From a virus, in IMG/VR virus record IMGVR_UViG_3300025319_000059, positions 1-38,142 of that record: a stretch of DNA of 38,142 nt; one strand, given 5' to 3'. The notes beneath the pieces were generated by a model. The model was not told the origin of the DNA and ran no database searches. It saw only the letters and a program-made list of their open reading frames with translations. Of this stretch, positions 1 to 38,142 are shown one piece after another. The translations under genes and the position numbers were made by a program. The stretch's first letter is position 1, and every line of letters starts with the position of its first letter.

Positions 1-1030
1 CAGCCCCTGATACTCGGTAACAATTTCTCTGAGATCTTTAAGCATCTCGCCTATTACTGGCTTGTAATACTTGCCATCTTCTTTGAGAAACTCTTTTACA
101 AGATTAGGGTATTTTGAAGTTATTGTTGTGGGAATCTCCGTATATTTCTCCATCAGTGTTGCAAACCCCTCAACTGCTCTTTTCTTCAGCTTGTGAGTAG
201 TCTTGCCTCCCGGATAGTATTCAGTGTAAAGATTAGTTATTTCCTTCCGGAGTCCTTTGGTTTCAGGAGAATATATAGGATTGCCGTTTTTGGCCCATCC
301 CTTAACTTCCAATAATCTGTCGCTTATATTGTAAGCAGCATCCAGTAAATGACTGTCCTCATGGGCAGTAACTCCCAAATCATTCATTCCGTTAACTCTT
401 ACGTTGTATGTGTCGGAGTAAAAGACACCCAATGCGCGTCTCGGAGTATATTTCTCACCCAAAGTTCCCTTACCGATCATCTTAATATACTTATCGGTTA
501 ATGCTCTTGTTTTCTCAAATAACTTAAAATTAGAAGCTTCGGTTAATTCTGCAGGTATGTTTTCAAATTCACCTATTTTTCCTGTACCTGTACTTGCAGT
601 GCCTGTTGGAACACTTATTTTTTCTGTGGAAGGAGTGACAGGAGCTTCACCGCCGCCTTTTGCAACTTCGGCTTTTGCTTTTGTAGCGCCGACTGAAACA
701 GGAGTCCCACGTTTTGCACTGAAAGTGGCTCTTTTTTCAATTTGTTCTTTGAAGGATTTTTTAAAACTTTCATAATCTGCTCCGTCAATATCTCCGGCTT
801 TTATATTTTCGGATATACTTGTAAATATTTTATCAAACTTCAATGATAGAAGTCTAATATTTTTGCCAAACCCTTCTATATCTGTTGAGAAGATCAGATC
901 GTCAAAAGCTTTTTTAGCATCCCCTCCTACAGTTAATATTCCTTCCGGGGTTTTATACTGCCTTTCCTTGCCAACAATTTTATACAATGCACCCGGACCC
1001 TTGAAGTGGGCGCTTAGTTTGTCAGCTATC
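1..1030. repeat. Left copy of diverged end-to-end duplication
   Basis: This segment aligns along its whole length with 36957-38142. The first 60 bases are identical. After that, differences are scattered, mostly synonymous, at roughly one in ten bases by eye. The left copy lacks about 156 bases (52 codons) that the right copy has in the low-complexity part before GKIGEFENIPAE. Both copies keep the same reading frame and the HEDSH motif. An exact terminal repeat would be identical, so this is either two haplotypes of one gene overlapping at contig ends or two related genes. Confidence 0.9.
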
Positions 1031-3396
1031 TTAAGAATCTTGTTTGTCGGATCATCAATCTCTCCTCCTGAAACTTCTGCCTTTAGATCTTTGCTTACTT
1101 CATTAAGTGTTTGCTCCTGATAACTTTCCATTTCACCAATCAAATTATCAAAACTTGGCAGATCCGGATTACCTATAAGCGCATCTTCATGTAAAACTCT
1201 TGCTACTTCTATGTCTCCTGTAAATATTGCATCCTTAATTGTGTCCAAAAGTTCTGTTTTCTGTTTTTCTTCTTGTTTAGTTAGCTGCTTTTCCTTATTT
1301 ACTAACTCTTTTTGTTTTTTGGGTAAATCAAACTCAACTTTAGATTTTGATTCAATTTCCGCAATATCTCCGATATCTTTACTTGTTAGCCTGTCAGATG
1401 GTATCTTTTCAAGATCTGCCACTAGGGGATCCCCTTCCTGAACCTGAATAGGGGAGACTACCCCAGTAGGGGAGAGTGGGGGAGTGGTCTTAATTATTTT
1501 TGCATCTCCCCCTACTCCTTTAGGTTTCTTACCAAACATAAAATCTATAGCCTGTCTTATTTTCTCTGTTGGGGTTGTTGATGGTCTTAATGGATTTATA
1601 TCAGTTGTCGGGTCGGGTTTAAACTTCGCTGGCTGTAAAAATCCTTCCGTTTGTCCCAACATTTGTGCGGATTTCTTGTCTGGTAAATACCAACCTAAGA
1701 TATTTCCCTGAGCATCTTTGCCTTGAATTAACACCTGCTTAACACCCAAACCGCCTAATTCTTGTTCATAAACCTCACCAGGTAAGAATTTTCCTGTTCC
1801 TTGTTTAGCGGACTTTAACGCTGTTGCTTCATCAATTAAGCCCCCTACTCCTTTAGGTTGGGTGTAATCTATTGTTTTGGATACATTAATGGGAAACTCT
1901 TTTATGTTTGCATCAAATAGTGCTTCTGCTCTATTTCTACCATCTAAAACATCATAAGTAATTTTTCCATCTAATCCCTCAATTTCTCTTACAATTATTG
2001 GTTCAAGTTTTCCTTCTTTGTATTGGCTTACCACACTTTTTTTGAAGGATTCCCATTCTTTTCCTTGTTTTCTGTTAATATCTTCCAATTCCCAGTTAAT
2101 TTTACTTACAGGAACATATTTAATCCCTACTCCTTTAGGTTGGGTGGGGAGTAATTCTGTCACTTTTTTAGCTTCAGGAACTTCTGGTTTTGGTTTTCTT
2201 TCTAGTAGTTTTTCTTTCTCTTTAGCAGTAAATATATCTGGTTGTTTTCTGTCTGGTTGTTCTTTTTTTGTAGTTATTTCTGATTCAATTCCGGAAAGTA
2301 AACTCTTTGGTTTCTCAGGAACAGCGGGAGCTTTTACTTCTACGCCCACTTTACCTAATTTACTCTGTATAAAATCATAGGCGGCAGCATACTTTTTATC
2401 TATCACTCCGGCATTAGAAAGGATGTCATATGCAGTTTGCAGTTCTTTTCTTTTAATTAAGTTTTCGGGTTTTGGATTGGATGTAAAAGTGTCCGGAAGT
2501 TCTTTTATTTTTCTTCTGAAAGCTTCGCTTATTTCCCTTAAGGTAGCGTTAGGCTTTACATCAAGGACTTTACTTACTTTACTGATTTCCTCAGCTTTTA
2601 AATTAAGGGATCCAAGCTTTTTTCTGGCAAAAGGCTCAACAAACATGGTAGCCAAAAATACAATATCTATCGCTTCGGCCAATTTAACATTATCCGTAAA
2701 CACTTCTCCGAACCCCGGCTGGTTATTTATACCCTTTAACGGAGTTTCAAGTAACTCTCCTGCACTTATTTTTCCCTGTAAATACTGCCTTACGCCCTTC
2801 CATGAGTTAAGTCCGGTTCCTATCAGTGGAGCAGCCAGATTTGCTCTCCAAGCTACATTGAGTATGCCTACTCCGTTTTTCAATAATGTACTTGCATATT
2901 CCTTCGGTTTAATCGGTTTTCCTATTGCTGCCCTATAAACCATATAAGCAGGGGTTAGTTTGCCAATACCTTCAATTTCACCAACCGCCTTAGCTGTATC
3001 TTCTACATACTGGATTGCTGGCGCAAAATCACTGACAAACTTTTTGGGTAATTGAGGTATCCCTTCTTTCAGCCTTTGAACTCCTCCCTTAAAGCCTCCT
3101 GGAACTTCAGTAAGGGGATTGTATGTTACATAAGGCTTTACTTTTTCAAACAAGGGCTGAATTTTAATACCGCTTAGTTTACTTGCTACAGTATCAGATA
3201 TTTGCTTGAAAAGACTTCCGGCTTTCTCTTTAAAGCCTGATTTTTTTTCAGCTTGGGGTTGTTCCGTAAATAATAACTTGTTACGTCTTTCCTGAAAACT
3301 ATTCCCTCCTGAAGTTGATTGTACAAAAGGCGTGGGCGTAAGGTTTTCTCCTCCACCTATTAGCTGGTTACGTCTTTCCTGAAAAGAGGGTTGCAT
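1..3396 (-). CDS. Giant polyvalent virion protein, N-terminal 1132 residues (3' end off window)
   Basis: The frame is open from an ATG at 3396 to the left edge, with no stop in the window. In order I see: two N-terminal SFQERRN motifs; a helical hydrophobic stretch near 165-250; a J-domain-like helix pair (about 276-328) with Leu-Pro-Asp at 300-302 where active J domains have His-Pro-Asp; a ParB/sulfiredoxin-like domain (about 425-505) with DGRNRAEA at 485-492; a charged linker holding three PKGVG motifs; and a zincin motif HEDSH at 1012-1016, with a candidate third ligand Glu1076. Long chains of unrelated domains are typical of phage polyvalent proteins injected with the DNA. The region from residue 804 on is homologous to the partial gene at the right edge, which probably supplies the missing C-terminus. 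It starts 8 nt after the preceding stop with no clear Shine-Dalgarno. Function beyond the domain calls is inferred. Confidence 0.8.
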   Translation of the reverse strand, partial: MQPSFQERRNQLIGGGENLTPTPFVQSTSGGNSFQERRNKLLFTEQPQAEKKSGFKEKAGSLFKQISDTVASKLSGIKIQPLFEKVKPYVTYNPLTEVPGGFKGGVQRLKEGIPQLPKKFVSDFAPAIQYVEDTAKAVGEIEGIGKLTPAYMVYRAAIGKPIKPKEYASTLLKNGVGILNVAWRANLAAPLIGTGLNSWKGVRQYLQGKISAGELLETPLKGINNQPGFGEVFTDNVKLAEAIDIVFLATMFVEPFARKKLGSLNLKAEEISKVSKVLDVKPNATLREISEAFRRKIKELPDTFTSNPKPENLIKRKELQTAYDILSNAGVIDKKYAAAYDFIQSKLGKVGVEVKAPAVPEKPKSLLSGIESEITTKKEQPDRKQPDIFTAKEKEKLLERKPKPEVPEAKKVTELLPTQPKGVGIKYVPVSKINWELEDINRKQGKEWESFKKSVVSQYKEGKLEPIIVREIEGLDGKITYDVLDGRNRAEALFDANIKEFPINVSKTIDYTQPKGVGGLIDEATALKSAKQGTGKFLPGEVYEQELGGLGVKQVLIQGKDAQGNILGWYLPDKKSAQMLGQTEGFLQPAKFKPDPTTDINPLRPSTTPTEKIRQAIDFMFGKKPKGVGGDAKIIKTTPPLSPTGVVSPIQVQEGDPLVADLEKIPSDRLTSKDIGDIAEIESKSKVEFDLPKKQKELVNKEKQLTKQEEKQKTELLDTIKDAIFTGDIEVARVLHEDALIGNPDLPSFDNLIGEMESYQEQTLNEVSKDLKAEVSGGEIDDPTNKILKIADKLSAHFKGPGALYKIVGKERQYKTPEGILTVGGDAKKAFDDLIFSTDIEGFGKNIRLLSLKFDKIFTSISENIKAGDIDGADYESFKKSFKEQIEKRATFSAKRGTPVSVGATKAKAEVAKGGGEAPVTPSTEKISVPTGTASTGTGKIGEFENIPAELTEASNFKLFEKTRALTDKYIKMIGKGTLGEKYTPRRALGVFYSDTYNVRVNGMNDLGVTAHEDSHLLDAAYNISDRLLEVKGWAKNGNPIYSPETKGLRKEITNLYTEYYPGGKTTHKLKKRAVEGFATLMEKYTEIPTTITSKYPNLVKEFLKEDGKYYKPVIGEMLKDLREIVTEYQGL
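1510..2146 (-). repeat. Three in-frame copies of a 17-22 nt repeat encoding PKGVG
   Basis: The plus-strand 17-mer ccctactcctttaggtt occurs at 1510-1526, 1843-1859 and 2125-2141. The last two copies continue identically for five more bases (to 1864 and 2146). All three lie in the same frame of the polyvalent gene and give Pro-Lys-Gly-Val-Gly, twice preceded by Thr-Gln. The copies sit in linkers around the ParB-like domain, so they look like inserted short repeats tolerated between domains. Origin is unknown. Confidence 0.75.
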
Positions 3397-4682: not shown

Positions 4683-5366
4683 TTATATTGAGAATTTACC
4701 TATTTCTCCTACTTGTTTTCCATAATAATTAGGAATATCAAATTGCGGATGGTCTTTACGTTGATCTCTTTGTTGTCTCTGGAGGACTTTTCTGAAGATT
4801 CTGCTTAAAATATTGGTAGCTTCTGATTCTTCTGCCTGTGAAAGTTTTTTATCAATTTTTGCAATAGCCACACTTAATGCCTTTTTAACAATAGCTTCGT
4901 TTCCAGAATCGTCATGGTCCGAAAAGATTGTCTTATCTCCACTTGCAGATAGTTGAGTAGCCTGTATAGAACCCCAAATATCAAAATTGTCAGTTCCTGT
5001 CCCAGGAGTAGGGAAAATAAATATCTGCCTGCCAAAATCCGCAAAAATTCGGGTATTAGTATCTGTGGAATTATTTAATTTATAATCAAGCCAGTCCTCA
5101 AAAGCTTTTCTGTCATATTCTTTATCATCTATGATAATCCGGCTTATAGAATCTGTCCTAAAGTCCGTTGGATAGTCATAGTAGTAGTCTCCGTTTGTAG
5201 AAGTATACTTGTCTCTTTCAAGCTGGGGCCAAAGATAAAGCGAAGTAGCCCATAAATGAGCATCTTTAATCAAAGTTTGAATACGCGCAGTCGGGAAAAG
5301 AGTACTGTTGGTACTTGCCATTAAGCGAGCAAGTAATTCTGTCTGCATTTCGGAGTATGTTTGCAT
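4683..5366 (-). CDS. Head-tail adaptor-like protein (podovirus connector)
   Basis: A 227-residue protein. It begins with a helical segment (MQTYSEMQTELLARLMAS) and an helix carrying WATSLYLWPQLERDKY. Next comes a beta segment ending in a YYDYPTDFR turn, then RQIFIFPTPG. The C-terminal half is helical and charged, and tolerates repeated Arg/Gln. This order (helix, W-x-L, Y-x-Y-P-x-D-F, beta hairpin with IFPTPG, helical C-terminus) resembles the adaptor proteins that sit under the portal in SU10/P22-like podoviruses. It lies between tail and internal-protein genes, as expected. The call rests on pattern resemblance only. Its stop abuts the next ATG. Confidence 0.55.
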   Translation of the reverse strand: MQTYSEMQTELLARLMASTNSTLFPTARIQTLIKDAHLWATSLYLWPQLERDKYTSTNGDYYYDYPTDFRTDSISRIIIDDKEYDRKAFEDWLDYKLNNSTDTNTRIFADFGRQIFIFPTPGTGTDNFDIWGSIQATQLSASGDKTIFSDHDDSGNEAIVKKALSVAIAKIDKKLSQAEESEATNILSRIFRKVLQRQQRDQRKDHPQFDIPNYYGKQVGEIGKFSI

Positions 5367-7499: not shown

Positions 7500-10442
7500 C
7501 TAATACCTTGTATTCCAACCTGTACCTCTTGTTGAATACCTTGTATTCCAACCTGTACCTCTTGTTGAATACCTGTCAAGCCACACTTCAGGACTTGGGC
7601 TTGGTGAAGGACTAATTGAAACTGATGGACTGACCGAAACCGAAGGACTCACAGAAGGGCTTAAACTCTGACTTTTGCTTGGACTCTCACTTGGACTTAA
7701 AGACGGACTTTTTGATGGACTTAAAGACGGACTAACTGACCCTGATGGCGAGATAGATGGACTCAGACTAGGGCTTTTACTTGGTGAAAGAGAAATGCTG
7801 GGTGAGACAGATGGGCTTAGACTTGGGCTTTTTGATGGACTCAGACTAGGACTAACTGAAATAGATGGACTAACCGAAGGAGATACTGATGGGCTTTTTG
7901 AAACTGATGGACTAACACTAGGCGAGGCTGATGGACTTAAAGACGGACTTAAAGAAAGTCCTGTTTCAAATGTATAGTAAGCAACCAAACTCGGATCATT
8001 TGTGGGACTGGGAATTTCTGAATCCTTATAAGTACTAATTTCAGTAAGAGTTCTTACATCATTCCAAGCTCTTGCTTCATCCATTAAACCGTCATTTTCT
8101 GCACCAGCACCGACACTTCCTAATTCAAAATCTCCGGAAGAATTTTGAGTTGATGTAAGAGTTGTAATAACGTCGCTTCCAAGTTGGACACCATTAACAT
8201 AAAACTTTGCGACACCGCTTGCAAAGGTTACTGCGTAATGATAATAAACTCCAAGCGTGGGAATGTGTGCAATTGAAACGGCCGATTCCAACGCCGGATT
8301 AAATAAGAAAAGTCTAAGTTTATAAACACCTCCACCACTGTCCCAAATGTTTAAAGAATATGCTGATATTTTAGAAATTAGTCCAGTAGATAATCCACTT
8401 GGTAAAGACTCCCACTTAAACGAACATTCCAAGGTAAAATTATTTAATAAATCCAGTCCATTTTGACTAGCATCCGGAATATATAATCTTTGGGCTGAGC
8501 TTCTTTCAAAGTCAGCAGCAACAGAAGAGGCAGCAAAAGGAGTATCACCTGATCCTGTAACCCCATTTTCGTTAGTTAAATGATTACCACTCGCACTCTT
8601 GTCGGTTATATCCAAAACTACAACAGACGGGGAAACTGATGGGCTGATAGAGGGTGAGATACTAGGAGACAAACTTGGTGAAAAGCTTGGAGACAGAGAT
8701 GGGCTTTTTGACGGACTTAAGCTAGGACTAGGTGAGGGAGAAAGACTTACAGACGGAGATATACTTGGACTCTTGCTTGGACTTACAGACGGACTTAATG
8801 AGACCGATGGACTGACTGAAGGACTAGCACTAGGACTTAAGGAAGGGCTTTTTGACAGACTTAAGCTAGGAGATAAAGAAGGACTCACACTAGGTGACAA
8901 GCTGGGGCTTAAAGATACTGATGGACTTACAGACGGACTTAATGAGACCGATGGACTGACTGAAGGCGACACACTTGGACTCAGAGATGGGGAAAGACTG
9001 GGACTTAAAGATACCGAAGGACTAACCGAGGGGCTTACTGACGGACTAATGCTGGGTGATAGGCTTACACTCGGCGAAACCGAAGGTGAAAGGCTCGGTG
9101 ATAAGCTCGGACTCAGACTGACCGATGGTGATACCGAGGGGCTTATACTTGGTGACAAAGATGGACTTAAGCTCACACTGGGAGAAACACTGGGAGATAG
9201 ACTTGGACTCAGCGATACACTGGGAGAAACGGAGGGTGAAGCACTGGGAGATAATGAGGGTGAAAAGCTAGTTCCCCCTCCTGCTGTATAGGTAGCGTAG
9301 ATGGAATGCTTTCTATTTTGGGGCGAATCTTCAACTAACGTACTAGGCCAACCAGCATCAAAATCAATACCTAAGTCTCCAAATGTATCTCCGACTGTAT
9401 CGTAAGCAAAATAACACGAACGCGCTGCAACACCGTCGTAATCGGAATTACTAGCTAAAGCATATGTTCCTGCTACTAATGTCGGATTTGTTGTAAAGGT
9501 ATAATTTAACCAACCTTGTGAAGCAGAAGTTATAGTTGTATTTTGTGTAGCTCCATTAGTTTGTAGATTATGAGTAGCTGCATTATCGTAAATTGCAGAC
9601 GAAGAAGGGACTTCGGTTGTTATAGTTCTTCTCCAAGAAGCCGTTAATTTAGTTATTTCGCCATCTTCACTTAAAGTTGCAGCAGTCCCCCAAGGTCTAT
9701 CTCCGGCAAAAATATCACTAGCACCGATACTTTCGTACCCAAACGTTGGGTCAACAATTACTGGATAAACTGCATTATCAAGCCATGTTTGGTCTATAGT
9801 TACTGTCAGAAGTCCATTTTGTTCATTTATATTTAACTGTCCCCATGTTTCCTTTCCATTGGCGTCTGTTATTTTTGGTCTATAAATATGAAATGCTTTA
9901 CCTACCTTATACTCCATTCCTGCCGCATCATTCATTCCGCCTTTAGTTTTGTGATAAACGGCGTAGCTTCCCTCTACGTTGGCAGGTCTTGAGGCCCCTT
10001 CGTCTATTTCTTGTTGGGTTAGAGCTGGTTGGTAGAAGAAATCTAAAGATTTCGTTTCAATCGTAAATTCAAGTACATTAGAAGCTGGTTTTTCTTTTAA
10101 AATGACTTCAAATTCATATCCACCATCTTCTGATAACTCTGGTTTGTCGTAGAAGTGGACTTCTTTAGTTCCGTTGACCCATTTGATTACTTCTTTGTCG
10201 GTTTCTACTGTGGCTTTTGTGTAGTCATCTTCTTTTAAACGGACTGAAGTATTTACTTCATTGTCCCATCTGGAAATTTTAATCTGAGGATAAAATAAGT
10301 CAGGTTGTTTGTCATCACCAACAATTACTTCTATACGGTCTTTTGGATTGCTTTTAGCAGTTTGTTTGAAAGATTCATTAGCAAATTCGTATTTTGCCGA
10401 TATCTCTGAACTTATCTTGGTTAGATCAACTTTCTTTTCCAT
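7500..10442 (-). CDS. Large Ser-Pro repeat (mucin-like) appendage protein with LamG-like domain
   Basis: A 980-residue protein in five parts. Residues 1-390 form a beta-rich anchor domain, including QTWLDNAVYPVIVDPTFGYES. Residues ~392-608 are an almost pure Ser-Pro-Ser-x repeat, x being mostly Val, Leu, Ile or Ala. Residues ~609-820 look like a laminin-G/concanavalin jelly roll: DKSASGNHLTN, YYHYAVTFASGVAKFYVNGVQ and the end motif MDEARAWNDVRTLTEI. A second Ser-Pro block covers ~823-951. The tail carries an exact 11-residue tandem duplication (YSTRGTGWNTR). LamG domains bind carbohydrate, so a host-binding fibre is likely. The Ser-rich linkers resemble O-glycosylated mucin regions, and a sugar-modification operon ends just upstream. 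Confidence 0.8.
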   Translation of the reverse strand: MEKKVDLTKISSEISAKYEFANESFKQTAKSNPKDRIEVIVGDDKQPDLFYPQIKISRWDNEVNTSVRLKEDDYTKATVETDKEVIKWVNGTKEVHFYDKPELSEDGGYEFEVILKEKPASNVLEFTIETKSLDFFYQPALTQQEIDEGASRPANVEGSYAVYHKTKGGMNDAAGMEYKVGKAFHIYRPKITDANGKETWGQLNINEQNGLLTVTIDQTWLDNAVYPVIVDPTFGYESIGASDIFAGDRPWGTAATLSEDGEITKLTASWRRTITTEVPSSSAIYDNAATHNLQTNGATQNTTITSASQGWLNYTFTTNPTLVAGTYALASNSDYDGVAARSCYFAYDTVGDTFGDLGIDFDAGWPSTLVEDSPQNRKHSIYATYTAGGGTSFSPSLSPSASPSVSPSVSLSPSLSPSVSPSVSLSPSLSPSISPSVSPSVSLSPSLSPSLSPSVSPSVSLSPSISPSVSPSVSPSVSLSPSLSPSLSPSVSPSVSPSVSLSPSVSPSVSLSPSLSPSVSPSLSPSLSLSKSPSLSPSASPSVSPSVSLSPSVSPSKSPSISPSVSLSPSPSPSLSPSKSPSLSPSFSPSLSPSISPSISPSVSPSVVVLDITDKSASGNHLTNENGVTGSGDTPFAASSVAADFERSSAQRLYIPDASQNGLDLLNNFTLECSFKWESLPSGLSTGLISKISAYSLNIWDSGGGVYKLRLFLFNPALESAVSIAHIPTLGVYYHYAVTFASGVAKFYVNGVQLGSDVITTLTSTQNSSGDFELGSVGAGAENDGLMDEARAWNDVRTLTEISTYKDSEIPSPTNDPSLVAYYTFETGLSLSPSLSPSASPSVSPSVSKSPSVSPSVSPSISVSPSLSPSKSPSLSPSVSPSISLSPSKSPSLSPSISPSGSVSPSLSPSKSPSLSPSESPSKSQSLSPSVSPSVSVSPSVSISPSPSPSPEVWLDRYSTRGTGWNTRYSTRGTGWNTRY
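7502..7573 (-). repeat. Exact 33-nt tandem repeat at the fibre C-terminus
   Basis: Two exact 33-nt copies (7502-7534 and 7535-7567) are followed by 6 nt of a third. They encode the 11-residue unit YSTRGTGWNTR and end at the TAG stop. The copies have no synonymous differences, which indicates a very recent duplication or ongoing length change at the tip. Confidence 0.95.
7590..7975 (-). repeat. Second Ser-Pro-Ser-x coding repeat block of the large fibre
   Basis: About 128 codons of degenerate 12-nt units encoding Ser-Pro-Ser-x, with Lys, Gly, Glu and Gln more frequent at x than in the first block. It lies between the LamG-like domain and the C-terminal tandem duplication, so it works as a stalk segment. 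Confidence 0.85.
8620..9270 (-). repeat. First Ser-Pro-Ser-x coding repeat block of the large fibre
   Basis: About 217 codons of 12-nt units, some expanded to Ser-x-Ser-Pro-Ser-x. Codons vary between units (Ser as AGT, AGC, TCC, TCA and others), so the array is old enough to have diverged yet keeps its protein pattern. This implies selection on the peptide. The opposite strand is also open here and mimics a Gly/Leu/Asp-rich protein. Confidence 0.9.
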
Positions 10443-10504: not shown

Positions 10505-11458
10505 TTATTCTACTACACTTTTAAGTCTATCTAAATCTTTTTGTTCCCAATCAGGCACAGGCCAGAACTTTTCAACCAGCCAGGAGACAGGATGAATTGC
10601 CTTGTCCCACTTGTTTTTCCAGAAGAGATCCCTCACATTTTTTTTCACTTTTTCTTGATCGCGGCCAGAGACGGGCCAAGGAAAACCAAAGTTACTTTTA
10701 GTTCTGAAAAGATGTGCATACCAAGTATTATGATTACAAAGAACCATACCGCCGGAAAGCCAAGTTTTACAAGCTACTTCAATTCCCTGATTTCCCCAAT
10801 TACCAAGCTTTTCATCACACAGATTAAGTTCCCAATACTTTTTCCGGGTACACATAAAAGAGGATCCCTGTAAAGACATTGATTGTGTAAGTCCTTTTTC
10901 TTCTTTGTCTTTTATATACTCCGGTCTATGTTTGTAATCTTCAAAATACTTGAACTGAGGAGTTTTGTTAAAACAATAAGAAGTACTCTGTGGCCTTCTT
11001 TTACCGATCCAGAGCATTTTCCGCTTCATTTCATTACCGCAGTTAGGACACTTAGGGATTCTATCCTGATATTCCCTCTTTCCGCATTTATAGCACTTCC
11101 AGTCAAATGCCCAAAGATTGCGCATAATAGGAACCATAGTTACGTTATCTCCGGTTTTCTTAAAAGCCTCTATCATTTTTCTGTCAAATCCCTGGTCAAA
11201 AGAACAATGAGCATCAACCTTCATAATATATTTAGCTTTGCTTAATTTACATGCTAAATTAGCAGCTCCTCTCTGGCCTACACTTTTAGGAACATAAATG
11301 ATGTTTACCCTGTCATTTTGCGGGACCGGAGGATCAGTCCACTCTCCATCTAATAAAGCAATTATTTCTGTGTCTGCTTCTCTATGTTGAAGAATGTCCT
11401 CAATAGTATTTTTGAGGAACATTTCATTTCTTGAAGGTATTAAGATTGAAAGATCCAT
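10505..11458 (-). CDS. Family 2 glycosyltransferase with inserted zinc ribbon
   Basis: A 317-residue GT-A glycosyltransferase. It starts with the nucleotide-sugar fold (MDLSILIPSRNEMFLKNTI, EIIALLDGEW). The metal site is VDAHCSF, with Asp82 and His84 in place of the usual DxD. An acceptor-site region follows (SMSLQGSSFMCTRKKYWEL, then GNWGNQGIEVACKTWLSGG), as in polypeptide GalNAc-transferase-like GT2 enzymes. Cys122, Cys125, Cys137 and Cys140 form a two-knuckle zinc ribbon inserted in the middle, which is unusual. The C-terminal region is Trp-rich. It is a distant paralogue of the gene at 17308-18102. It is the last gene of the sugar-modification operon, just before the large fibre. The natural target (virion Ser/Thr, or glycan) is unknown. 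Confidence 0.8.
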   Translation of the reverse strand: MDLSILIPSRNEMFLKNTIEDILQHREADTEIIALLDGEWTDPPVPQNDRVNIIYVPKSVGQRGAANLACKLSKAKYIMKVDAHCSFDQGFDRKMIEAFKKTGDNVTMVPIMRNLWAFDWKCYKCGKREYQDRIPKCPNCGNEMKRKMLWIGKRRPQSTSYCFNKTPQFKYFEDYKHRPEYIKDKEEKGLTQSMSLQGSSFMCTRKKYWELNLCDEKLGNWGNQGIEVACKTWLSGGMVLCNHNTWYAHLFRTKSNFGFPWPVSGRDQEKVKKNVRDLFWKNKWDKAIHPVSWLVEKFWPVPDWEQKDLDRLKSVVE

Positions 11459-11910
11459 TTTTTGTTCTTTTCTAATATCCCTCTTTCAGCAAGAAATCTA
11501 GCCTTTAATGCCTTGAATAAGTTTTTATATCTTCCAAGATTTATCGTCTTTCCGTTTAATTGAATACCAGCCCTCCATTTTTTATTCTGTTTATCCCAAT
11601 AAACACCCTTGAATCCCGACTTATTGTGTTTGTACATCCCTATATTAAAGTGATTGATACTATTGGTAACAGTTCGGAGATTCTTTTTTCTGTTATCTAA
11701 TTTATTACGATTTATATGATCTGTTTGAAAATCTTCAGGCGTGTTGTGAATAAGTCGGTGTAAAGTTATATTTTTCCCATTCTCTTTTCTTATAACATAT
11801 CCTTTTGTACTGATTCCCCACTTCCATTGATTGAAGAAAACGAAATCTTCGTCATCAACTAAAGTAAAGAGGTTTGAGTATTTCTTGGTACTAATGTTTA
11901 TTTTCTTCAT
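11440..11910 (-). CDS. HNH homing-type endonuclease with AP2 DNA-binding domain
   Basis: A 156-residue protein. An N-terminal segment precedes the HNH core: LHRLI (His51), QTDHINRN (Asp64, His65, Asn67) and DNRKKNLR (Asn77). An AP2-like DNA-binding domain follows (about 96-140: NKSGFKGVYWDKQNKKWRAGI, LGRYKNLFKAL). This is the standard layout of free-standing phage homing endonucleases. It overlaps the upstream gene by 20 nt and the downstream gene by 19 nt. Its last 13 residues (GILEKNKKWIFQS) repeat the end of the upstream dehydrogenase-like protein (GILEKNKEWIKSN). The repeat suggests the HNH cassette was inserted at that gene's 3' end and the old end became its own C-terminus. Confidence 0.85.
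   Translation of the reverse strand: MKKINISTKKYSNLFTLVDDEDFVFFNQWKWGISTKGYVIRKENGKNITLHRLIHNTPEDFQTDHINRNKLDNRKKNLRTVTNSINHFNIGMYKHNKSGFKGVYWDKQNKKWRAGIQLNGKTINLGRYKNLFKALKARFLAERGILEKNKKWIFQS
11453..11486. repeat. Direct repeat A flanking the HNH gene
   Basis: 34 bases matching 11919-11952 with about seven differences. On the minus strand it encodes RGILEKNKKW at the HNH C-terminus and also contains the ATG of the glycosyltransferase gene. It is probably the original 3' end of the dehydrogenase-like gene, displaced by the insertion. Confidence 0.75.
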
Positions 11911-12703
11911 TTGATTTAATCCATTCCTTATTTTTTTCTAATATACCTCTTGTTATTTTAGGATTATACCCTAAAGATTCGGCAAATGCACACCAAGCAT
12001 AGATATCTTTAGGTATACACTTAGAATTGAAACCCCTTTTCTCCGGATATATAAAAGTCCACCAAAGATTAAACCGGGGATCATCTCCGTAAACCGCATC
12101 TCTTATTGTGTAATAATCAATTCCTGCTTTTTGACAGACATCGTATAGCTCCTGACATTGAGCTACTTTAAAGGAAATTGCGCGGTTTTCAGTAAGCTTA
12201 ATTACTTCAGCTTCATAGGCAGTAACTTGCCGAATATTGGTATTAGCATTATAAACAGTCGTGTATAAATCTATAAGTTCTTTCCTGTCTTTTGCTTCAC
12301 CACCAATTATTAAAAACTGCCTAGTTCTCGGATCCAACATTGGATGAGCAGGCGTTTCCCCAAGATACTCAGGCTGCATAACGATATTCTTTTTATACTT
12401 TTCAATCAAATAATCACAAGTTCCCGGATTAACAGTTGAACGGATAACTATAATAGGACATTCACACCAGGCAACGACTTCTTCAACTATTGAAGTATCT
12501 AACTTTCCCTCTCCAATATTCGGAGTCGGTACACAAACAAATACAATCTCACTCTCGTTTACCTGTTCTTTATTCCCCCAATTCAAACTATTATCTTTAT
12601 TTTCAAGTACTCTTAACTTCGGATCATAAAGAACGGCGTCAGGGAAAAGCTTCTGCATGGCTTTTCCAACCCAACCATAGCCAATAATTGCAACTTTTTT
12701 CAT
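11891..12703 (-). CDS. Short UDP-glucose/GDP-mannose dehydrogenase-like protein
   Basis: A 270-residue member of the nucleotide-sugar dehydrogenase superfamily, which oxidises UDP- or GDP-sugars to uronic acids with NAD. It has the Rossmann motif GYGWVG (8-13), CVPTP (57-61), RSTVNPGT (88-95), PEYLGE (111-116), a helix with VIKLTENRAISFKVAQCQEL, and the catalytic-type motif FNSKCIPKD with Cys229 and Lys232. Cellular enzymes have over 400 residues. The C-terminal sugar-nucleotide domain is missing, so dimerisation or substrate use may differ. Its ATG overlaps the preceding stop (ATGA), placing it inside the coupled sugar operon. The C-terminus was probably altered when the HNH gene inserted. 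Confidence 0.75.
   Translation of the reverse strand: MKKVAIIGYGWVGKAMQKLFPDAVLYDPKLRVLENKDNSLNWGNKEQVNESEIVFVCVPTPNIGEGKLDTSIVEEVVAWCECPIIVIRSTVNPGTCDYLIEKYKKNIVMQPEYLGETPAHPMLDPRTRQFLIIGGEAKDRKELIDLYTTVYNANTNIRQVTAYEAEVIKLTENRAISFKVAQCQELYDVCQKAGIDYYTIRDAVYGDDPRFNLWWTFIYPEKRGFNSKCIPKDIYAWCAFAESLGYNPKITRGILEKNKEWIKSNEENKH
11919..11952. repeat. Direct repeat B flanking the HNH gene
   Basis: Counterpart of 11453-11486, lying at the present 3' end of the dehydrogenase-like gene and encoding RGILEKNKEW. Similarity stops sharply outside the 34 bases. The pair brackets the HNH coding region and marks the probable insertion boundaries. Confidence 0.75.
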
Positions 12704-13422
12704 AGGTCAAACATCTTTTTTATATCCTGCCAACCATCTATTTTGTCCAAGCTTGTTTCTCTCCAACTTTTAGTATCAGGCTTGTGTTTAAATTCTTCAA
12801 GATTTACTTTACGTCTACTAAAAGTCCTATTATGCCTGATATCTATATTAGGATATTTAGATTTCCAAGTATCGCTTTTTTCATCCGAGAAGCCTCCTCT
12901 TTTTGTTCTTTTACGACCAGGTTCATAACCCCATTTTCTTGCCCACTCCGGTTCTTTTCCTTCTTTATTGTATAGTCCATCTTTTAAGACTCTATTCAAT
13001 CGTTTTTTGTACTGCATTAGTGCTAACTGGCGATTACAACACATCATAGACAAAGAAGTTAAACCGTCATAGTTAATAAGTCTGTCTTTCGGATAATCCC
13101 ATCTCCAGTCATTAGTGTTGTAGTAATAAACATCACCAAAGGTAAGAGTAAACTCAAAGTGTGACGGATGATACAAAACGTCATGCTCGGTAAAAAAAAC
13201 AACGTCAGAACTTGATACTTCAAGTGCAGTTACTATCTGTCTAAGCATTGTAAAATAACTCGGTATTAAACCTTCTATATATATGTTTGTACCAAAGTCC
13301 ATCGGTTTAAGTGATACAGAGACTATCTTGCCATCAAAAGCTTTTCTTAATTGCTTCTGACAAACTTCCATAATTACAGGATTCAGTCTATTGTCTGTAT
13401 AGTAAATACATCCTTTTGTCAT
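12700..13422 (-). CDS. Phage glycosyltransferase-like protein, paralogue 1 of 3
   Basis: A 240-residue protein with the shared pattern of three genes in this operon: a starting strand (GCIYYTDNRL), then IVSVSLKPMDFGTNIYI, a helix with FTMLRQIVTALEVS, and a metal-site-like VFFTEHDVLYHPSHFEF. This fits a GT-A glycosyltransferase fold with Glu-His-Asp in the DxD position. The C-terminal third is basic and Lys/Arg-rich (GYEPGRKRTKRGGFSDEK). It overlaps both neighbours by 4 nt (ATGA). Donor and acceptor are unknown. The paralogues at 14011-14655 and 16185-16838 share the core. Confidence 0.6.
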   Translation of the reverse strand: MTKGCIYYTDNRLNPVIMEVCQKQLRKAFDGKIVSVSLKPMDFGTNIYIEGLIPSYFTMLRQIVTALEVSSSDVVFFTEHDVLYHPSHFEFTLTFGDVYYYNTNDWRWDYPKDRLINYDGLTSLSMMCCNRQLALMQYKKRLNRVLKDGLYNKEGKEPEWARKWGYEPGRKRTKRGGFSDEKSDTWKSKYPNIDIRHNRTFSRRKVNLEEFKHKPDTKSWRETSLDKIDGWQDIKKMFDL

Positions 13423-14024
13423 GGCTTAAACCACATAAAACTTCTCCACTTATCTCTCTTTTCTCCTTCTATTTCATCTTTCCTTCCAAGAACAAACCAG
13501 TTGTGGATATCAAATGCTTGGGTATAAGTATCTACCATATATCTAACGTACGAATCTGTAGACTCCGGAAAGTAAACATAGTCATGTCCAGAAATAACTC
13601 CACCCTTCTTTACTTTTTTAGACCACTCAACTAAATCTTCAGCTATATATCTGAATCCATGATTCCCATCAATATAAACGTAATCCAAAGATTCGTCTTT
13701 AAAATCGGCTAAAGCATCCATTGAAGTCTTTTTTATAATCGTGCAATTTTTGTAAGGCTCCAAAAGCTTCTTAGCACGTTCATATTGAGTACTCAAGGTA
13801 TTCCCTCCAGCTACAGAATAACCTTTATAAGACACCCAAGGATCAATCGCATAGTGTATCAAACTCGCTTTACAGAATAACTCCGAATATTCACCCTTCC
13901 AGACACCAATTTCAGCCCCAATCTTAAATCCTAAATCTACAAATAACTTAGGCAGACCATCTCTGGTAGAATCCGGGATTTCTACTGGCCTTCCTTTTAA
14001 CTTAATACCTTCAATTAATTCCAT
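13419..14024 (-). CDS. Class I SAM-dependent methyltransferase (Methyltransf_24 type)
   Basis: A 201-residue protein. The SAM-binding loop is GAEIGVWKGEYS (36-47). Later motifs are LDYVYIDGNHGFRYIAEDL (Asp119, His122) and KKGGVISGHDY (His147, Asp148). This set is typical of the Methyltransf_24 family, often found in glycan biosynthesis clusters, where members O-methylate sugars. It overlaps the upstream glycosyltransferase-like gene by 14 nt and the downstream one by 4 nt, so the three are probably translated together. The methyl acceptor is unknown. A modified sugar is the context-based guess. Confidence 0.75.
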   Translation of the reverse strand: MELIEGIKLKGRPVEIPDSTRDGLPKLFVDLGFKIGAEIGVWKGEYSELFCKASLIHYAIDPWVSYKGYSVAGGNTLSTQYERAKKLLEPYKNCTIIKKTSMDALADFKDESLDYVYIDGNHGFRYIAEDLVEWSKKVKKGGVISGHDYVYFPESTDSYVRYMVDTYTQAFDIHNWFVLGRKDEIEGEKRDKWRSFMWFKP

Positions 14025-15575: not shown

Positions 15576-16188
15576 ATTTTACTTCTATAAAATCAGTTAT
15601 AAAATGCCACTCAGTATCTCTCGGTAAACTCAATAAATTATCAAGACATCTTGCTACGTCATTTTTGGTTCCATAAATATGACCGTGTAGTTTCAGTAGA
15701 TCGGCCCCAGAGTCCCGGTAAGATTCATCCAGTAAAAAGTTATATTTATAAAATCTCTTAGGGTAAGGCATTACCTTATCCCTATCTACCGCCCCCCACC
15801 ATCCGGATTCATCTAAAGCCTTAACCACATCTTCAGTCCATCTCCAATGAGGAGCACAAAAGCCTTGTTCAAAAGGTAACCCATCTATAAAGAAATTTCT
15901 TTTAATCATTGGTAAAACATAATCTCTTGTATAATGGTAACTCCACCTTAAAGCTTCAGATCCTTTATGGTAAAGTCCATGCGGTATTATCTGAATCCAA
16001 TCCAGATTTCCCCTGATTTTCTCTCTCAATCTGTTCCTGATAATATAAGATCCCCAATCTGCCTTCATATCAATAGGTACGGTAAATAAAGACACTTTAA
16101 AGTCCGGAAAACTCTCTTTAAGTCTTAAAAGTACATCCAATCTGTTATTAACCACGCTAAAGTCATGTAAATCCAATGCTACTTTCAT
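15568..16188 (-). CDS. Polysaccharide deacetylase-like protein
   Basis: A 206-residue protein with the motif order of NodB-type carbohydrate deacetylases, which use a divalent metal to remove N-acetyl groups from sugars. The first motif is ALDLHDF (Asp6, His8, Asp9), the metal motif is PHGLYH (His70, His74), the third is GFCAPHWRW (Pro113, Trp115), and the last is LKLHGH (His168, His170). Motif 1 differs from the usual TFDDG. It overlaps the flanking genes by 8 and 4 nt in the operon. A role in trimming phage-made glycan, or host-wall sugar, is plausible from context. Confidence 0.65.
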   Translation of the reverse strand: MKVALDLHDFSVVNNRLDVLLRLKESFPDFKVSLFTVPIDMKADWGSYIIRNRLREKIRGNLDWIQIIPHGLYHKGSEALRWSYHYTRDYVLPMIKRNFFIDGLPFEQGFCAPHWRWTEDVVKALDESGWWGAVDRDKVMPYPKRFYKYNFLLDESYRDSGADLLKLHGHIYGTKNDVARCLDNLLSLPRDTEWHFITDFIEVKYD

Positions 16189-33342: not shown

Positions 33343-33453
33343 TTAAAAATACGATAAAAACAAATCAAACATGATACCTACTACCATCATTATGAACGAT
33401 ACAACTATAGCAAGTCCAATTCTTTTAAGAAAAGCCAAGTCATCATATATCAT
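33343..33453 (-). CDS. 36-residue membrane peptide coupled to the polyvalent gene
   Basis: The ATG overlaps the stop of the giant gene (ATGA). It encodes MIYDDLAFLKRIGLAIVVSF, then IMMVVGIMFDLFLSYF, one membrane segment with a short charged head. Tight coupling at both ends supports translation. It may be the first lysis protein or a membrane helper. Confidence 0.5.
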   Translation of the reverse strand: MIYDDLAFLKRIGLAIVVSFIMMVVGIMFDLFLSYF

Positions 33454-36400
33454 CTTTTGGCCAATAAATCAGGAGGGGCAGCAAACCACCTTCCCCAACC
33501 GCCCTCATCATAAATAATTTTAGCCATCTTAATATTTTTTTCCGGATCAAGCATTTCATCCCAAGCTTCCTCCGGACTCTCAATAGTGATTCCTGCAGCC
33601 TTTAATCTCTTTTTATATCTTTTAAATTCTCTGTCTGTAAAATTCCTTGAGTTTATCCTGTAAAGTCCTCTGTCCTGCGAGTACCAAAGTCCATCTTTCC
33701 CCAGTACATCACCCGGAGATTGTTTTGAATTAACCCCTTTCTGATAACCCTCATTGGAAACATCAACTTCCCTTCCTGCTCTATAACCCGGATTCTCCCC
33801 ATGAACCTCGCCCTTTTCATTGGTATAGCGCAAGACTCGCTTGGCATTTTCAGCTTGATCTCCAAATTCTTCATTAATTAAATCTTCGTATTCTTTGGGA
33901 ATAACCTTTTTAATATCTTCAGGTTTGGCTTCTAATACTCCCTTTGGCTGTTGCATTGGTTCAGTGAATCCCGGACCTGTTTTCTTAGGCTTTTCTACTG
34001 TCGCGTTTATTTGATCGTTATAACTAAGAAGCTCGTTTATCCTTTCCTCCTTACTTCTGTAACCCAGTTTTTCAGAAACATTAAGTTCAGGAAGCCCTAA
34101 TTTTGTTCCTATATCACCAAGTACCTTACCAACAGACTGCAATATGCTTAAATCACTATCAATATTTTTATGAGATTCTTTGTACACTCCCTCACTATCT
34201 TCATATCTTGTTATCACATCATCCCCTTTAACTTCTATTCCCAAGACTTTCTTTCCACCCTCCATAGCATTAACAGTAGGAGTAAGTTTGCTTATTATGT
34301 TTCCGGCTCCTTTAACAAGACTTGCAAGGGAATCTCTCATCTTTATACTGGATTGTTTTCCTTCACCACTTAGTTTATCTATTTCTTTTATAATCATATT
34401 CCTCAGCTTCTGGGCCTTAAGAGGATCTTTTTGCAGATCTATGTCTCTGTATACTTTCAGGAGATCATTTATATTTTTAACCTGGCCGTATTTTTTGGCT
34501 ACTGCAGCCCTTTGCTCTCTGGGAAGCGTATCAATTTGTTTATACTGTGCTTGGGCTTTATTGTATTCATCATAAAAGTTTTCAACACGCCTTCCAGTTG
34601 TAAAGTAATAATCCCTTAAATAAGCATTTTGAACACTGTATATTCCGGGTTTGCCTGTAAAAAAACCTGTATACCTTCCGAATATACCTGTAACAAGAAA
34701 ATCTATTTTAAGAGGTGATATATTAAGTTTCTTACCCAAAACCTTAGCCAAAGTTGAAGTTGATTCATTATAGCGCTCACCCGGAGCTTTATATTGCATA
34801 CCTGCCCCTTCAATTGGTCTGACACTGGGATAGTCCTTAATGTTTGCAATCAACTCAAAGGGAACTTTAACGAGGGGATTAAACCAGGAAAGAAACATGG
34901 CAGCAGGATCGTTAATCTGCATTTGCTGTGGAAGTATGTTAAAAAGCGCGTCTGCATATTCAGCGAGCTTATATTTAACCCCAAATACCTGTTCGTTAAT
35001 CTTTAATGCCATCATTGTTGCTATGACCGACAACTCCGGAGATACTTTTACCCTTACCAAACCCTTGCCGTTTGTAAAGGGGAAGTATAAAAACATCCCT
35101 ATTTCGTTTGTCTTAAGATCTTTATACTGTTCCTTCTGATCGTCACTTCCGAACTGAGAAACGGCGGCGATACTACTTAGGTATAGTCCTACAAGTGCTG
35201 CCATAGCAAAAGCGATTCTTTTTCTTCCTTCTGTGCTATCCTGCCCGGTCCTGATAAGTTGTGTCATTATCTGCAAGGAAGCGTTGGCAAAGGGCATGGC
35301 CTTAATCATATTCTTGCCCGAAATACCTTTTACACGCCAACTGCCTATGTGATGGAATGGTCCGGTGATTCTTGCCGCTTCCTCCAGTGCTACAACTTGT
35401 GACTTTCCGGCTTTTATAGCTTTATAGAACTCCGCGAACCTTGTAACAGTCTCTGAAGTGTTTGAGGGAATTGAAAAGACGTTTATACCTTTATTAATAA
35501 GGTCAAGTGATTTTTGTATGCCGTTTCTTTCATTGATAACCGCTTTTACCGCCTGGTCCGCAGGTAATGACAAAAAGTTAGCAAGAGTAAGCCTGGAACC
35601 GCCCAGAACCTCATACATTTCATAAATCCGGCCTACTTCACCCTTTTGTCCTGTCATGCCTTCTTTGAGTATGCGTAGCGAGTCCACAAGGGGAGTATAT
35701 TTGTTTCTGCTATTAACGATAGCGTTCCACTGGTCTGCCGCAAAATTGGTAGCTGCAAAAGCAGGGTACATTCCGGTAGTACCTACTGTGAACATCCTTG
35801 ATGCAGATACCAACACCTGCTCAAATATGTTCATTGACTGGAAAGTTAAAACATTATCTATTGTTGACTTAATAAGGCTATGGGTAAGGATAGGAACTCT
35901 TTTATAATCAATCCTAGCCATAATGATATTCGGATCCTTCTCCTGCGGATAATAGATACGGTTTTTCGCATCAGCAGTTATCTGAAGCTGTAACTTCTGA
36001 AACATATCCGGAACAACCGCTTCTTCCGCGATCTTGCCTATTTTGTTATAGACAATCTGCCTCATGCTCTTTTTAACCGCTTCTATATGGTTTCTGACAC
36101 TTGAGGCAACCGGATTTATAATTGCCCTTGCACTTCCTGCTCTGGACTTTAAGAATGAAGCTTTTACTCCACCTTTGACTGTCATAGCTCCGTAACCCTC
36201 CTCGCCTACAAGTTCATCCTCAAACCTTCTTTTGAAGGTAGCATAGCCTTTTTTGTCTGTTAATTTCTGGAAAGTTTCATTATTTACCAACTGGACTTCC
36301 GGATCATGGAGCATTTTCAGATCTTCACTTACTAATACATCAAAGACTTCTTCTTCTTTTTTAAATCTCTCTGCATTTGCAAGGTAAGCTTCAGATACTT

Positions 36401-38142
36401 CTTCTTCAGTAAATCCGTCATTATCAAGCACTTTCTTTAATTTGCTGTATTCTTCCTGGGCTTGGCGTAAGTTATCAAGCGGAGTATTTCCGTTTTCATC
36501 CGCAACTTCCCCGGCCTCTTTTCCCAGATCTTTGACAACCTGTTTGGCTTTGTCTACTTTAGCTTTATATTCGGCCAATTCTTCATAGGCATAGTGTTCG
36601 CGCCTTGCAACAAGGTAATAACCAAATGAATCATGCGTTTTTTCCTTGTTTAAGTGGTCTATCAGAGTTTTCCAGTTAAAATCGTGTACTTTGACAAAAT
36701 CCCCATTCCTAAAAGCCCAGTAACCTCTTTTGGTCAAGACATTGTTGGCATAGACTCCTCCGCCTGTCTGCATAGCCCTAAGCCACAGTGAAGGATCATC
36801 TTTGGTAAAATGCACTCCTGCAACTCTGGCAACCTTTTCAACCGGATATATCTCATCTTCTACAAAAGTTCTGACTTTCTCAGCCAAGTTCAGAAATTGT
36901 TTTTTAGGTTCAAGGGCATTTTTAGTAACTCTTGCCCCGATTTTATCCAATGGATCCAGCCCCTGATACTCGGTAACAATTTCTCTGAGATCTTTAAGCA
37001 TCTCGCCTATTACTGGCTTGTAGTACTTGCCCTCTTCTTTGAGAAATTCCTTTACAAGATTAGGAAACTTAGTAGTAATTGTTGTCGGAATCTCCGTATA
37101 TTTCTCCATCAGGGTTGCAAATCCCTCAACTGCCCTTTTCTTCAATTTGTGAGTTTTTTTACCTCCTGCGTAGTATTCCGTATAAAGATCAGTTATTTCC
37201 TTCCGGAGTCCTTTTGTTGTTGGAGAATATATAGGATTACCGTTTTTAGCCCATCCCTTAACTTCCAACAATCTATCACTTATGTTGTAAGCAGCATCCA
37301 GTAAATGACTGTCCTCATGGGCAGTAACTCCTAAATCATTCATTCCATTGACTCTTACGTTGTATGTGTCGGAGTAAAAGACACCTAGTGCGCGTCTTGG
37401 AGTATACCTTTCACCCAAAGTCCCCTTACCGATCATCTTAATATACTTATCGGTTAATACCCTTGTTTTTTCAAATAACTTGAAATTAGAAGCTTCAGTC
37501 AATTCAGCAGGTATGTTTTCAAATTCTCCTATCTTACCTACGCTAGTACTTGCAAGACCTGAAGGAGCTTTTTGAGTAAATAAATCTCCTCCGTACTGCA
37601 TTTCTTCCCCCAGAGGAGTCCCTAATAATTCTCCACCAGTACCTTTTTTGACAGGAGTGGCTTCTTCAATTGTTTTTTCTACTCTTTCTTTTCTTTGAGC
37701 TTCTGTTTCTAATGGAGCTTCAATTCTTGCTTGCCTTTCGGCAGTAGTGATAGGAGCTTTACCGCCACCTTTTGCAACTTCGGCTTTTGCTTTTGTAGTG
37801 CTTGCTGGAATAGGAGTCCCACGTTTTGCACTGAAAGTAGCTCTTTTTTCAATTTGTTCTTTAAAAGCTTTTTTGAAACTTTCATAATCTGCTCCGTCAA
37901 TATCTCCGGCTTTTATACTTTCGGAAATACTTGTAAATATCTTATCAAACTTTAGTGATAGAAGTCTAATCTTTTTGCCAAATCCTTCTATGTCTGTAGA
38001 AAAGATCAGATCATCAAAGGCTTTTTTAGCATCCCCACCAACAACCAATACGCCTTCCGGAGTTTTATATTGCCTTTCCCTACCGACAATTTTATACAAT
38101 GCCCCGGGGCCTTTAAAATGAGCACTTAATTTATCAGCTATT
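33450..38142 (-). CDS. Giant polyvalent ejection protein, C-terminal ~1560 residues (5' end off window)
   Basis: The frame is open to the right edge; a TTG at 38099 is only an internal codon aligned with Leu804 of the left gene. Regions from 38099: charged linker (1-205), zincin motif HEDSH near 261, coiled coil around 520-600, then a hydrophobic, membrane-interacting region (about 760-1130: YPAFAATNFAADQWNAIVNS, INVFSIPSNTSETVTRFAEF, IAFAMAALVGLYLSSIAAVS) resembling the LPD38-type domain of phage polyvalent proteins. A Lys/Pro linker precedes a lysozyme/transglycosylase-like end (from ~1400: WYSQDRGLYRINSRNFTDRE, then LDPEKNIKMAKIIYDEGGWG). Such proteins form the core of podovirus heads and enter the cell with DNA. 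The catalytic Glu of the lysozyme-like part is not certain. Confidence 0.8.
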   Translation of the reverse strand, partial: IADKLSAHFKGPGALYKIVGRERQYKTPEGVLVVGGDAKKAFDDLIFSTDIEGFGKKIRLLSLKFDKIFTSISESIKAGDIDGADYESFKKAFKEQIEKRATFSAKRGTPIPASTTKAKAEVAKGGGKAPITTAERQARIEAPLETEAQRKERVEKTIEEATPVKKGTGGELLGTPLGEEMQYGGDLFTQKAPSGLASTSVGKIGEFENIPAELTEASNFKLFEKTRVLTDKYIKMIGKGTLGERYTPRRALGVFYSDTYNVRVNGMNDLGVTAHEDSHLLDAAYNISDRLLEVKGWAKNGNPIYSPTTKGLRKEITDLYTEYYAGGKKTHKLKKRAVEGFATLMEKYTEIPTTITTKFPNLVKEFLKEEGKYYKPVIGEMLKDLREIVTEYQGLDPLDKIGARVTKNALEPKKQFLNLAEKVRTFVEDEIYPVEKVARVAGVHFTKDDPSLWLRAMQTGGGVYANNVLTKRGYWAFRNGDFVKVHDFNWKTLIDHLNKEKTHDSFGYYLVARREHYAYEELAEYKAKVDKAKQVVKDLGKEAGEVADENGNTPLDNLRQAQEEYSKLKKVLDNDGFTEEEVSEAYLANAERFKKEEEVFDVLVSEDLKMLHDPEVQLVNNETFQKLTDKKGYATFKRRFEDELVGEEGYGAMTVKGGVKASFLKSRAGSARAIINPVASSVRNHIEAVKKSMRQIVYNKIGKIAEEAVVPDMFQKLQLQITADAKNRIYYPQEKDPNIIMARIDYKRVPILTHSLIKSTIDNVLTFQSMNIFEQVLVSASRMFTVGTTGMYPAFAATNFAADQWNAIVNSRNKYTPLVDSLRILKEGMTGQKGEVGRIYEMYEVLGGSRLTLANFLSLPADQAVKAVINERNGIQKSLDLINKGINVFSIPSNTSETVTRFAEFYKAIKAGKSQVVALEEAARITGPFHHIGSWRVKGISGKNMIKAMPFANASLQIMTQLIRTGQDSTEGRKRIAFAMAALVGLYLSSIAAVSQFGSDDQKEQYKDLKTNEIGMFLYFPFTNGKGLVRVKVSPELSVIATMMALKINEQVFGVKYKLAEYADALFNILPQQMQINDPAAMFLSWFNPLVKVPFELIANIKDYPSVRPIEGAGMQYKAPGERYNESTSTLAKVLGKKLNISPLKIDFLVTGIFGRYTGFFTGKPGIYSVQNAYLRDYYFTTGRRVENFYDEYNKAQAQYKQIDTLPREQRAAVAKKYGQVKNINDLLKVYRDIDLQKDPLKAQKLRNMIIKEIDKLSGEGKQSSIKMRDSLASLVKGAGNIISKLTPTVNAMEGGKKVLGIEVKGDDVITRYEDSEGVYKESHKNIDSDLSILQSVGKVLGDIGTKLGLPELNVSEKLGYRSKEERINELLSYNDQINATVEKPKKTGPGFTEPMQQPKGVLEAKPEDIKKVIPKEYEDLINEEFGDQAENAKRVLRYTNEKGEVHGENPGYRAGREVDVSNEGYQKGVNSKQSPGDVLGKDGLWYSQDRGLYRINSRNFTDREFKRYKKRLKAAGITIESPEEAWDEMLDPEKNIKMAKIIYDEGGWGRWFAAPPDLLAKR
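36957..38142. repeat. Right copy of diverged end-to-end duplication
   Basis: Homologous to 1-1030 from its first base to the right edge. It contains about 52 extra codons (the stretch from TAERQARIEAPLETEAQ to SGLASTSV) in the linker before the zincin domain. If both copies are one locus, the genome length is about 36,956 bases. Confidence 0.9.

Follow-up and report, generated by a model that had tools for sequence, protein, structure and literature searches.

An in-frame nucleotide repeat at the borders of variable cassettes in a giant LPD38-type polyvalent protein gene of uncultivated phages

Background

Among the giant internal proteins of virions, which have parts for opening the wall or acting as effectors, are gp16 of phage T7 and the virion RNA polymerase of phage N4, and polymorphic toxin systems exchange C-terminal toxin cassettes. 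Phages also encode polyvalent proteins, of which one kinase locus has been likened to recombining polymorphic-toxin cassettes (PMC5512222), and an LPD38 giant protein, gp69 of Burkholderia phage JC1, was found by mass spectrometry in CsCl-purified virions with 51 unique peptides (PMC9144972). The domain variety of polyvalent proteins is known; how new domains enter without breaking a frame of 2,000 residues is the question addressed here, for a giant gene of the 38,142-bp linear virus contig record IMGVR_UViG_3300025319_000059, the whole of which is called the window. The gene is encoded on the minus strand, runs off window base 1 and continues from base 38141 (Table 1). Its product, with disparate domains in a single open reading frame (ORF) and the phage-only marker LPD38, is a new member of the polyvalent class (PMC5512222).

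The product is probably an injected virion protein with a payload slot that is bounded by a short repeated adapter. More tentatively, we propose that the adapter of ~22-26 nucleotides, read in frame as PTQPKGVG(G), is a recombination socket in one uncultivated phage family, and as such part of a payload-loading system across lineages, on at least three unrelated giant-virion-protein backbones, in which single-domain effectors (ParB, ART-like, nucleotidyltransferase and others) are swapped, added or lost. No earlier description of such a socket was found, and the string QPKGVG had no occurrence in the literature searched. An earlier note on this DNA, which had described the giant protein itself, mentioned neither the adapter repeat nor the swapping of cassettes.

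Results and discussion

A repeated adapter at cassette borders

The chain runs in the order constant N-terminal module with J-like domain, payload slot, zincin, core of ~1,000 amino acids and lysozyme-like tail. An exact 22-nucleotide repeat, CACCCAACCTAAAGGAGTAGGG, encoding the peptide TQPKGVG, is present on both sides of the ParB-like cassette in the slot, and three adapter matches were observed in the window where 0.02 are expected by chance. Identical adapter DNA in the identical frame recurs in roughly twelve further giant ORFs of phages, where the cassettes are unrelated (loci on other contigs, here numbered L024, L026, L028, L030, L031, L032, L035/L038, L037, L041, L043, L046/L050 and L047), including two adapters around a ParB-like domain in L024 and two around a nucleotidyltransferase-like motif in L037. 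Backbones without the zincin-LPD38 core carry it also, namely those of L030 and L032, with matches to an internal virion protein (5e-24) and a DNA methyltransferase (1e-12), respectively. When the giant ORFs were compared with each other, the longest exact stretches common to different phages were nearly all the adapter, always in frame.

A scan of 2.9 M viral contigs for every synonymous coding of PTQPKGVG returned giant ORFs that all use the codons CCC ACC CAA CCT AAA GGA GTR GGR; the only other protein returned, an unrelated one of 188 amino acids (L034, L036), uses different codons. The chance that five independent ORFs share these codons is ~1e-10, a product of values based on the ORFs' own codon usage and restricted to the five ORFs of the all-codon scan, loci chosen by exact DNA being excluded as circular. 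The 18-mer also turned up in ORFs of an unrelated family (L022, L023, L029) and in the 188-amino-acid protein, and these occurrences were treated as coincidence.

The adapter always keeps the same frame and stands at domain borders of giant ORFs, and in the window it precedes the zincin; self-processing of the chain has been proposed for polyvalent metallopeptidases (MPTases) (PMC5512222). These observations would fit a possible alternative, about which we are doubtful, in which PTQPKGVG is kept for protein function as a cleavage site or flexible linker and its DNA identity reflects recent common descent of linkers. However, the same codons are used in otherwise non-homologous proteins, ORFs without a recognised zincin (L032, L035, L041) have the adapter, and most zincin-LPD38 relatives lack it. 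The occurrence of the same ~24-26 nucleotides in unrelated giant ORFs, with imperfect C-run and G-run ends, could instead mean that the adapter is a tiny mobile element, inserted in frame and spreading on its own, that adjoins cassettes by chance. This is improbable, considering that the adapter is located at domain borders of giant phage ORFs and that isolated phages, bacterial genomes and plasmids lack it, that no pair of one site with and without the adapter was seen, and that the contigs L035 and L038, described below, differ in a cassette and not in the adapter.

A second exact stretch, of 26 nucleotides (EPLAQEARK), is common to L012 and L030, of which the ORFs are otherwise different; in L030 it follows the QPKGV adapter, and it is perhaps a second adapter type.

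Probable cassette exchange between phages

The content of the slot varies in near-identical phages as well as among relatives, and the edges of the variable part coincide with the adapter or lie close to it. Contig L021 matches the window with ~100% identity through ~9.4 kb of upstream sequence and codons 1-141 of the gene. Beyond codon 141 it is divergent (76-85% nucleotide identity), with two ART-like domains replacing the ParB-like and beta-strand cassettes and the right cassette boundary on an adapter, until the two alleles (A in the left part of the window, B in L021) reconverge after codon 1110. Synonymous divergence (dS) is 0.4-0.65 in the divergent block and ~0 outside it, and the block therefore derives from a different lineage. 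The label of the two ART-like domains rests on motifs, and a Pfam search of L021 gave no ART match; an ART-PolyVal match in L031 (1.2e-5) and a DUF3990 match in the L041 cassette (3e-5) were below the cut-off. DUF3990 is presumably a family of the ART type. An alignment of the ART-like cassettes was too poor and was not used.

L035 and L038 represent one phage (identical over 5,941 bp and 99.98% identical over 3,928 bp) and differ by a single in-frame cassette of 507 bp (169 codons) that directly adjoins the adapter on its right side. L041 keeps the N-terminal and J-like part (59% amino acid identity) and the lysozyme-like tail (48%). Its middle is different, as is the cassette that stands between two adapters.

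The two ends of the window overlap as diverged copies (1-1029 and ~36957-38141, ~1.2 kb) with 88-90% nucleotide identity. Contig L004 (9,862 bp) corresponds to the window from 8196 to 1 at 99.96% and then continues into the right part; its junction is covered by one open frame of 1,687 amino acids, with a single residue difference, and the two parts are therefore one gene and one chain. The joined chain has 2,300 amino acids with the left allele and 2,352 if the right-end allele is pasted on. Direct joining of the window ends was rejected as the true protein, the ends being different alleles. Thus the chain of about 2,350 residues in the earlier note is indeed one ORF, as seen through L004, but its length fuses two alleles.

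Repeats of 22 nucleotides are notorious for mis-joins in assembly, and the window has a different allele at each end, as would be expected if the exchange were an assembly artefact of chimeric contigs joining two strains at the repeat. Such an artefact is nevertheless very improbable: allele B of L021 overlaps the right end of the window with 2 mismatches in 317 nucleotides, every junction keeps an open frame, the cassette states of L035 and L038 come from different metagenomes, allele A is repeated in L004, L019 and L020, and the same slot is found in a different phage, L041.

Several other observations weigh against the proposed socket and the injected protein that would carry it. Searches for the adapter in isolated phages, plasmids and 84,980 prokaryote GTDB genomes (exact 19-mer) gave no matches or matches at chance level, and it is therefore a feature of one ecological set. 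In most core relatives (L006-L010, L012, L014-L018) the cassettes vary and the exact adapter is missing; it is therefore not required for exchange, and the left exchange boundary of L021 (~codon 142) is far from any adapter. Exchange itself is deduced from metagenome contigs, and the lysozyme-like identity of the tail is weak.

By analogy with JC1 gp69, the gene appears to encode an LPD38-type polyvalent virion protein, which would be packaged in the particle and ejected with the DNA. The tail would then open the wall, the core and the hydrophobic helix in it would cross or anchor in the membrane, and the slot domains would act on the host. The adapter may provide the short homology through which annealing proteins of the phage or the host attach new cassettes in frame, and its peptide may be a tolerant linker, at which the zincin perhaps cuts the chain apart. 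The presence of the adapter on unrelated backbones, together with the natural before-and-after pairs (L021 and the window, L035 and L038), makes the question of domain entry directly testable. The adapter also offers a sequence tag for phage-carried effector domains, anything between two adapters being a candidate payload.

Table 1. Features of the polyvalent protein gene and its surroundings in the window (aa, amino acids; nt, nucleotides)
Feature	Position	Strand	Evidence or remark
5' part of polyvalent protein gene, allele A, aa 1-1132	3396->1	-	open frame without stop, start at 3396; read-through in L004
Constant N-terminal module, aa 1-265	2602..3396	-	first 141 codons identical in alleles A and B; with J-like part common to L041 at 59% aa
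J-like domain, aa 266-345, LPD replacing HPD	2362..2601	-	Pfam DnaJ 1.5e-6; profile against PDB; model helices
Adapter copy 1, PTQPKGVG, CCCACCCAACCTAAAGGAGTAGGG	2125..2148	-	
ParB/sulfiredoxin-like cassette, aa 425-510 (DGRNRAEA)	1867..2124	-	Pfam ParB_N and profile
Adapter copy 2, TQPKGVGG	1840..1863	-	
Small beta-strand cassette (GTGKF), aa 520-622	1531..1839	-	related stretch in L012, phmmer 1.4e-10
Adapter copy 3, KKPKGVGG, end of beta cassette	1507..1530	-	changed left end; 18-nt core with 1 mismatch
Conserved domain without assigned function, aa 786-905	682..1041	-	nonsynonymous to synonymous divergence (dN/dS) 0.07 between alleles; also in L012
Zincin-like metallopeptidase domain	61..582	-	HEDSH at 349-363; third-ligand Glu1076 at 169-171
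3' part of polyvalent protein gene, 1,563 aa	38141->33450	-	stop at 33450
Second, diverged zincin-region allele (first 395 aa of 3' part)	36957-38141	-	317-nt overlap with L021, 2 mismatches
Conserved C-terminal core (chassis)	34362..36956	-	alignment of 12 relatives
Hydrophobic helix IAFAMAALVGLYLSSIAAV, aa 1713-1731	35160..35216	-	Kyte-Doolittle (KD) window 2.16
LPD38 (PF18857)	34662..35132	-	Pfam 5.7e-11, above cut-off
Diverged adapter-like linker QQPKGVL, precedes lysozyme-like tail	33933..33953	-	
C-type-lysozyme-like tail	33453..33890	-	DRGLYRINS at 33648-33674 (aa 2227-2235 of joined chain)
Neck adaptor (SU10-type)	4683..5366	-	Pfam SU10_adaptor 1.5e-13; two genes upstream of giant gene

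Domains of the chain

The J-like, ParB-like, zincin and lysozyme-like segments that the earlier note had placed in one giant polyvalent chain are all present, the lysozyme-like one weakly, in a class that has been shown in virions (JC1 gp69), and each of the motifs it had listed (LPD, DGRNRAEA, HEDSH, the hydrophobic region and DRGLYRINS) was located in the joined chain.

The single-sequence Pfam DnaJ match is above the gathering score. A profile of the J-like region of the window, L021 and L041 gave, among 34 PDB sequences, matches only to DnaJ or J-domain chains and one J-domain RabJ, the best at 3.3e-5. The AlphaFold model has helices at 268-277, 286-298, 310-328 and 331-348 with moderate predicted local distance difference test (pLDDT) values, and a Foldseek search with it gave J-domain matches, none of them significant. 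The histidine of HPD, the motif that Hsp70 stimulation depends on, is missing in all three sequences, which have LPD (window, residues 300-302), YPD (L021) and YPD (L041), and stimulation of DnaK is unlikely because of this absence. Thus, the domain is J-like and would not be a functional co-chaperone. It is kept while cassettes and even the middle of the protein change (L041), and therefore looks like a constant part and not a host-directed payload. Because it is constant amid payload change and lacks the catalytic histidine, an assembly or packaging part is more likely than the host-directed chaperone mimic of the earlier note, which finds little favour in the sequences. Contig L019 (10001-12343), otherwise 99.8% identical, has an in-frame deletion of 24 nucleotides (EPFARKKL) directly before the J-like domain. 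Another adapter-bearing giant protein (L032:2024-8371, 2,116 amino acids) combines a J-like stretch in which HPD is intact (LHPDRGG) with a DNA methyltransferase.

The Pfam ParB_N match of the single sequence (0.0017) is below the cut-off. A profile of six ParB-like cassettes from several relatives matched sulfiredoxin (7e-5) and ParB (1.4e-4) in PDB, and the core motif of the D-G-x-x-R type is present as DGRNR; judged by these matches, the segment fits the ParB/sulfiredoxin superfamily. In the beta-strand cassette three strands are predicted with low pLDDT.

The HEDSH motif of the zincin corresponds to residues 1012-1016 of the chain, and the HExxH motif and the downstream glutamate of EG.A are invariant (12 of 12 sequences). 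The dN/dS ratio between alleles is 0.05 and the domain is under strong purifying selection. In the model the domain has helices at 999-1022 and 1070-1087, and most residues of 1010-1131, like the greater part of both helices, have pLDDT ~80-94. The AlphaFold model of the N-terminal part has a mean pLDDT of 45 and is confident only for the helices of the C-terminal half of the zincin; J and ParB pieces of distant relatives had been misplaced by MAFFT and were dropped from the folding alignment. A Foldseek search of PDB with this low-confidence model gave no significant match, to a full zincin fold or otherwise. The structure prediction that the earlier note had suggested as a check is thus confident for the zincin helices and moderate for the J helices, and it neither supports nor refutes a ParB fold.

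The J-like and ParB/sulfiredoxin folds are real, as they would be if a J-like chaperone mimic, a ParB-like nucleotide binder and a protease acted jointly on host targets after entering in one chain. Such joint action is unlikely, given the missing HPD histidine and a J-like part that stays constant while the cassettes swap, which suggests the assembly or packaging role.

The C-terminal core model matches 31 viral proteins at E<1e-3, many of them annotated LPD38 or LT_GEWL. In the lysozyme-like tail, GEN and DRGL.RIN are invariant in three sequences and are residues of C-type lysozyme, which would supply the catalytic Glu and the Asp of a DYG-like motif, and all PDB matches are C-type lysozymes or alpha-lactalbumins, but weak (E 0.03-0.1). 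At the same protein end, L009 and L014 have a clear SLT domain. The likeness to T7 gp16 put forward in the earlier note is an analogy only, as no gp16 match was found in Pfam, PHROGs or BFVD and the core matches LPD38 polyvalent proteins; a functional likeness is possible.

Genome context and relatives

PHROGs matches in the window include the terminase TerL (1.8e-19), the major capsid protein (2e-27), an endolysin (3e-20) and, weakly, a portal protein (0.0013). Just downstream of the giant gene are the endolysin gene and one for what is probably a small membrane protein. Neither a tail tube gene nor one for a tape measure was recognised in the window. The phage is tailed and its particle is probably podovirus-like.

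Two proteins with long S-P-S repeats are encoded at 7500-10442 and 18138-19421, and similar S/P-rich repeats are found in L008. Genes of a glycosyltransferase, a methyltransferase and a UDP-sugar dehydrogenase are located amid structural genes (10505-18102), and within this block of sugar genes is a gene resembling HNH-AP2 homing endonucleases (11440-11910). In a YdcK-like beta-solenoid protein (28650-29336), a near-identical motif of the VYGNAQVSGNAQ type is repeated many times.

Isolated phages include only remote relatives, with 22-25% identity over 27-39%, and the zincin-to-LPD38 alignment found no prophages or hosts among genome contigs. The same alignment identified further phages, each with one giant ORF of 1,734 to 2,605 amino acids (that of L018 being incomplete at the N-terminus), in which the core is constant and the N-terminal cargo variable. 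L016 carries RadC. A 2H phosphoesterase is present with a ParB-like domain in L006 (6003-11966) and L007 (7385-13129), related to 2'-5' RNA ligase (1e-10) and to anti-CBASS Acb1 (2e-5, below the cut-off), and it is possible that this cargo is an injected anti-CBASS enzyme. DNA polymerase III beta sliding clamps, with up to three domains (best 3e-10), were noted inside giant LPD38 virion-type proteins of L009 (6428-14197), L014 (6416-14230) and L015 (6332-13153).

Comparison with known systems

The closest described proteins are the LPD38 polyvalent proteins (Iyer et al. 2017, PMC5512222; PF18857), which like the window protein are giant and multidomain, with zincin MPTase, ParB-like and lysozyme-like parts and the LPD38 core, and are encoded after neck or structural genes and before lysis genes. 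Unlike the present analysis, the main text of that study mentions no J domain or DnaJ, no sliding clamp or DnaN, and no linker or DNA repeat between cassettes (PMC5512222). The DarB-like gp69 of phage JC1 shares the C-terminal LPD38, a lysozyme-like part (LT-like in gp69) and a position before the lysis module, and differs in its length of 4,515 amino acids, its methylase and helicase cargo, and a lysozyme that is N-terminal whereas the lysozyme-like part of the window protein is C-terminal (PMC9144972). From T7 gp16 and N4 virion RNA polymerase the window protein differs in that no sequence relation to them was found. With polymorphic toxins it has in common a constant part combined with an exchangeable effector, although here the slot is internal, a short repeated adapter stands at its bounds, and the protein is of the phage virion type.

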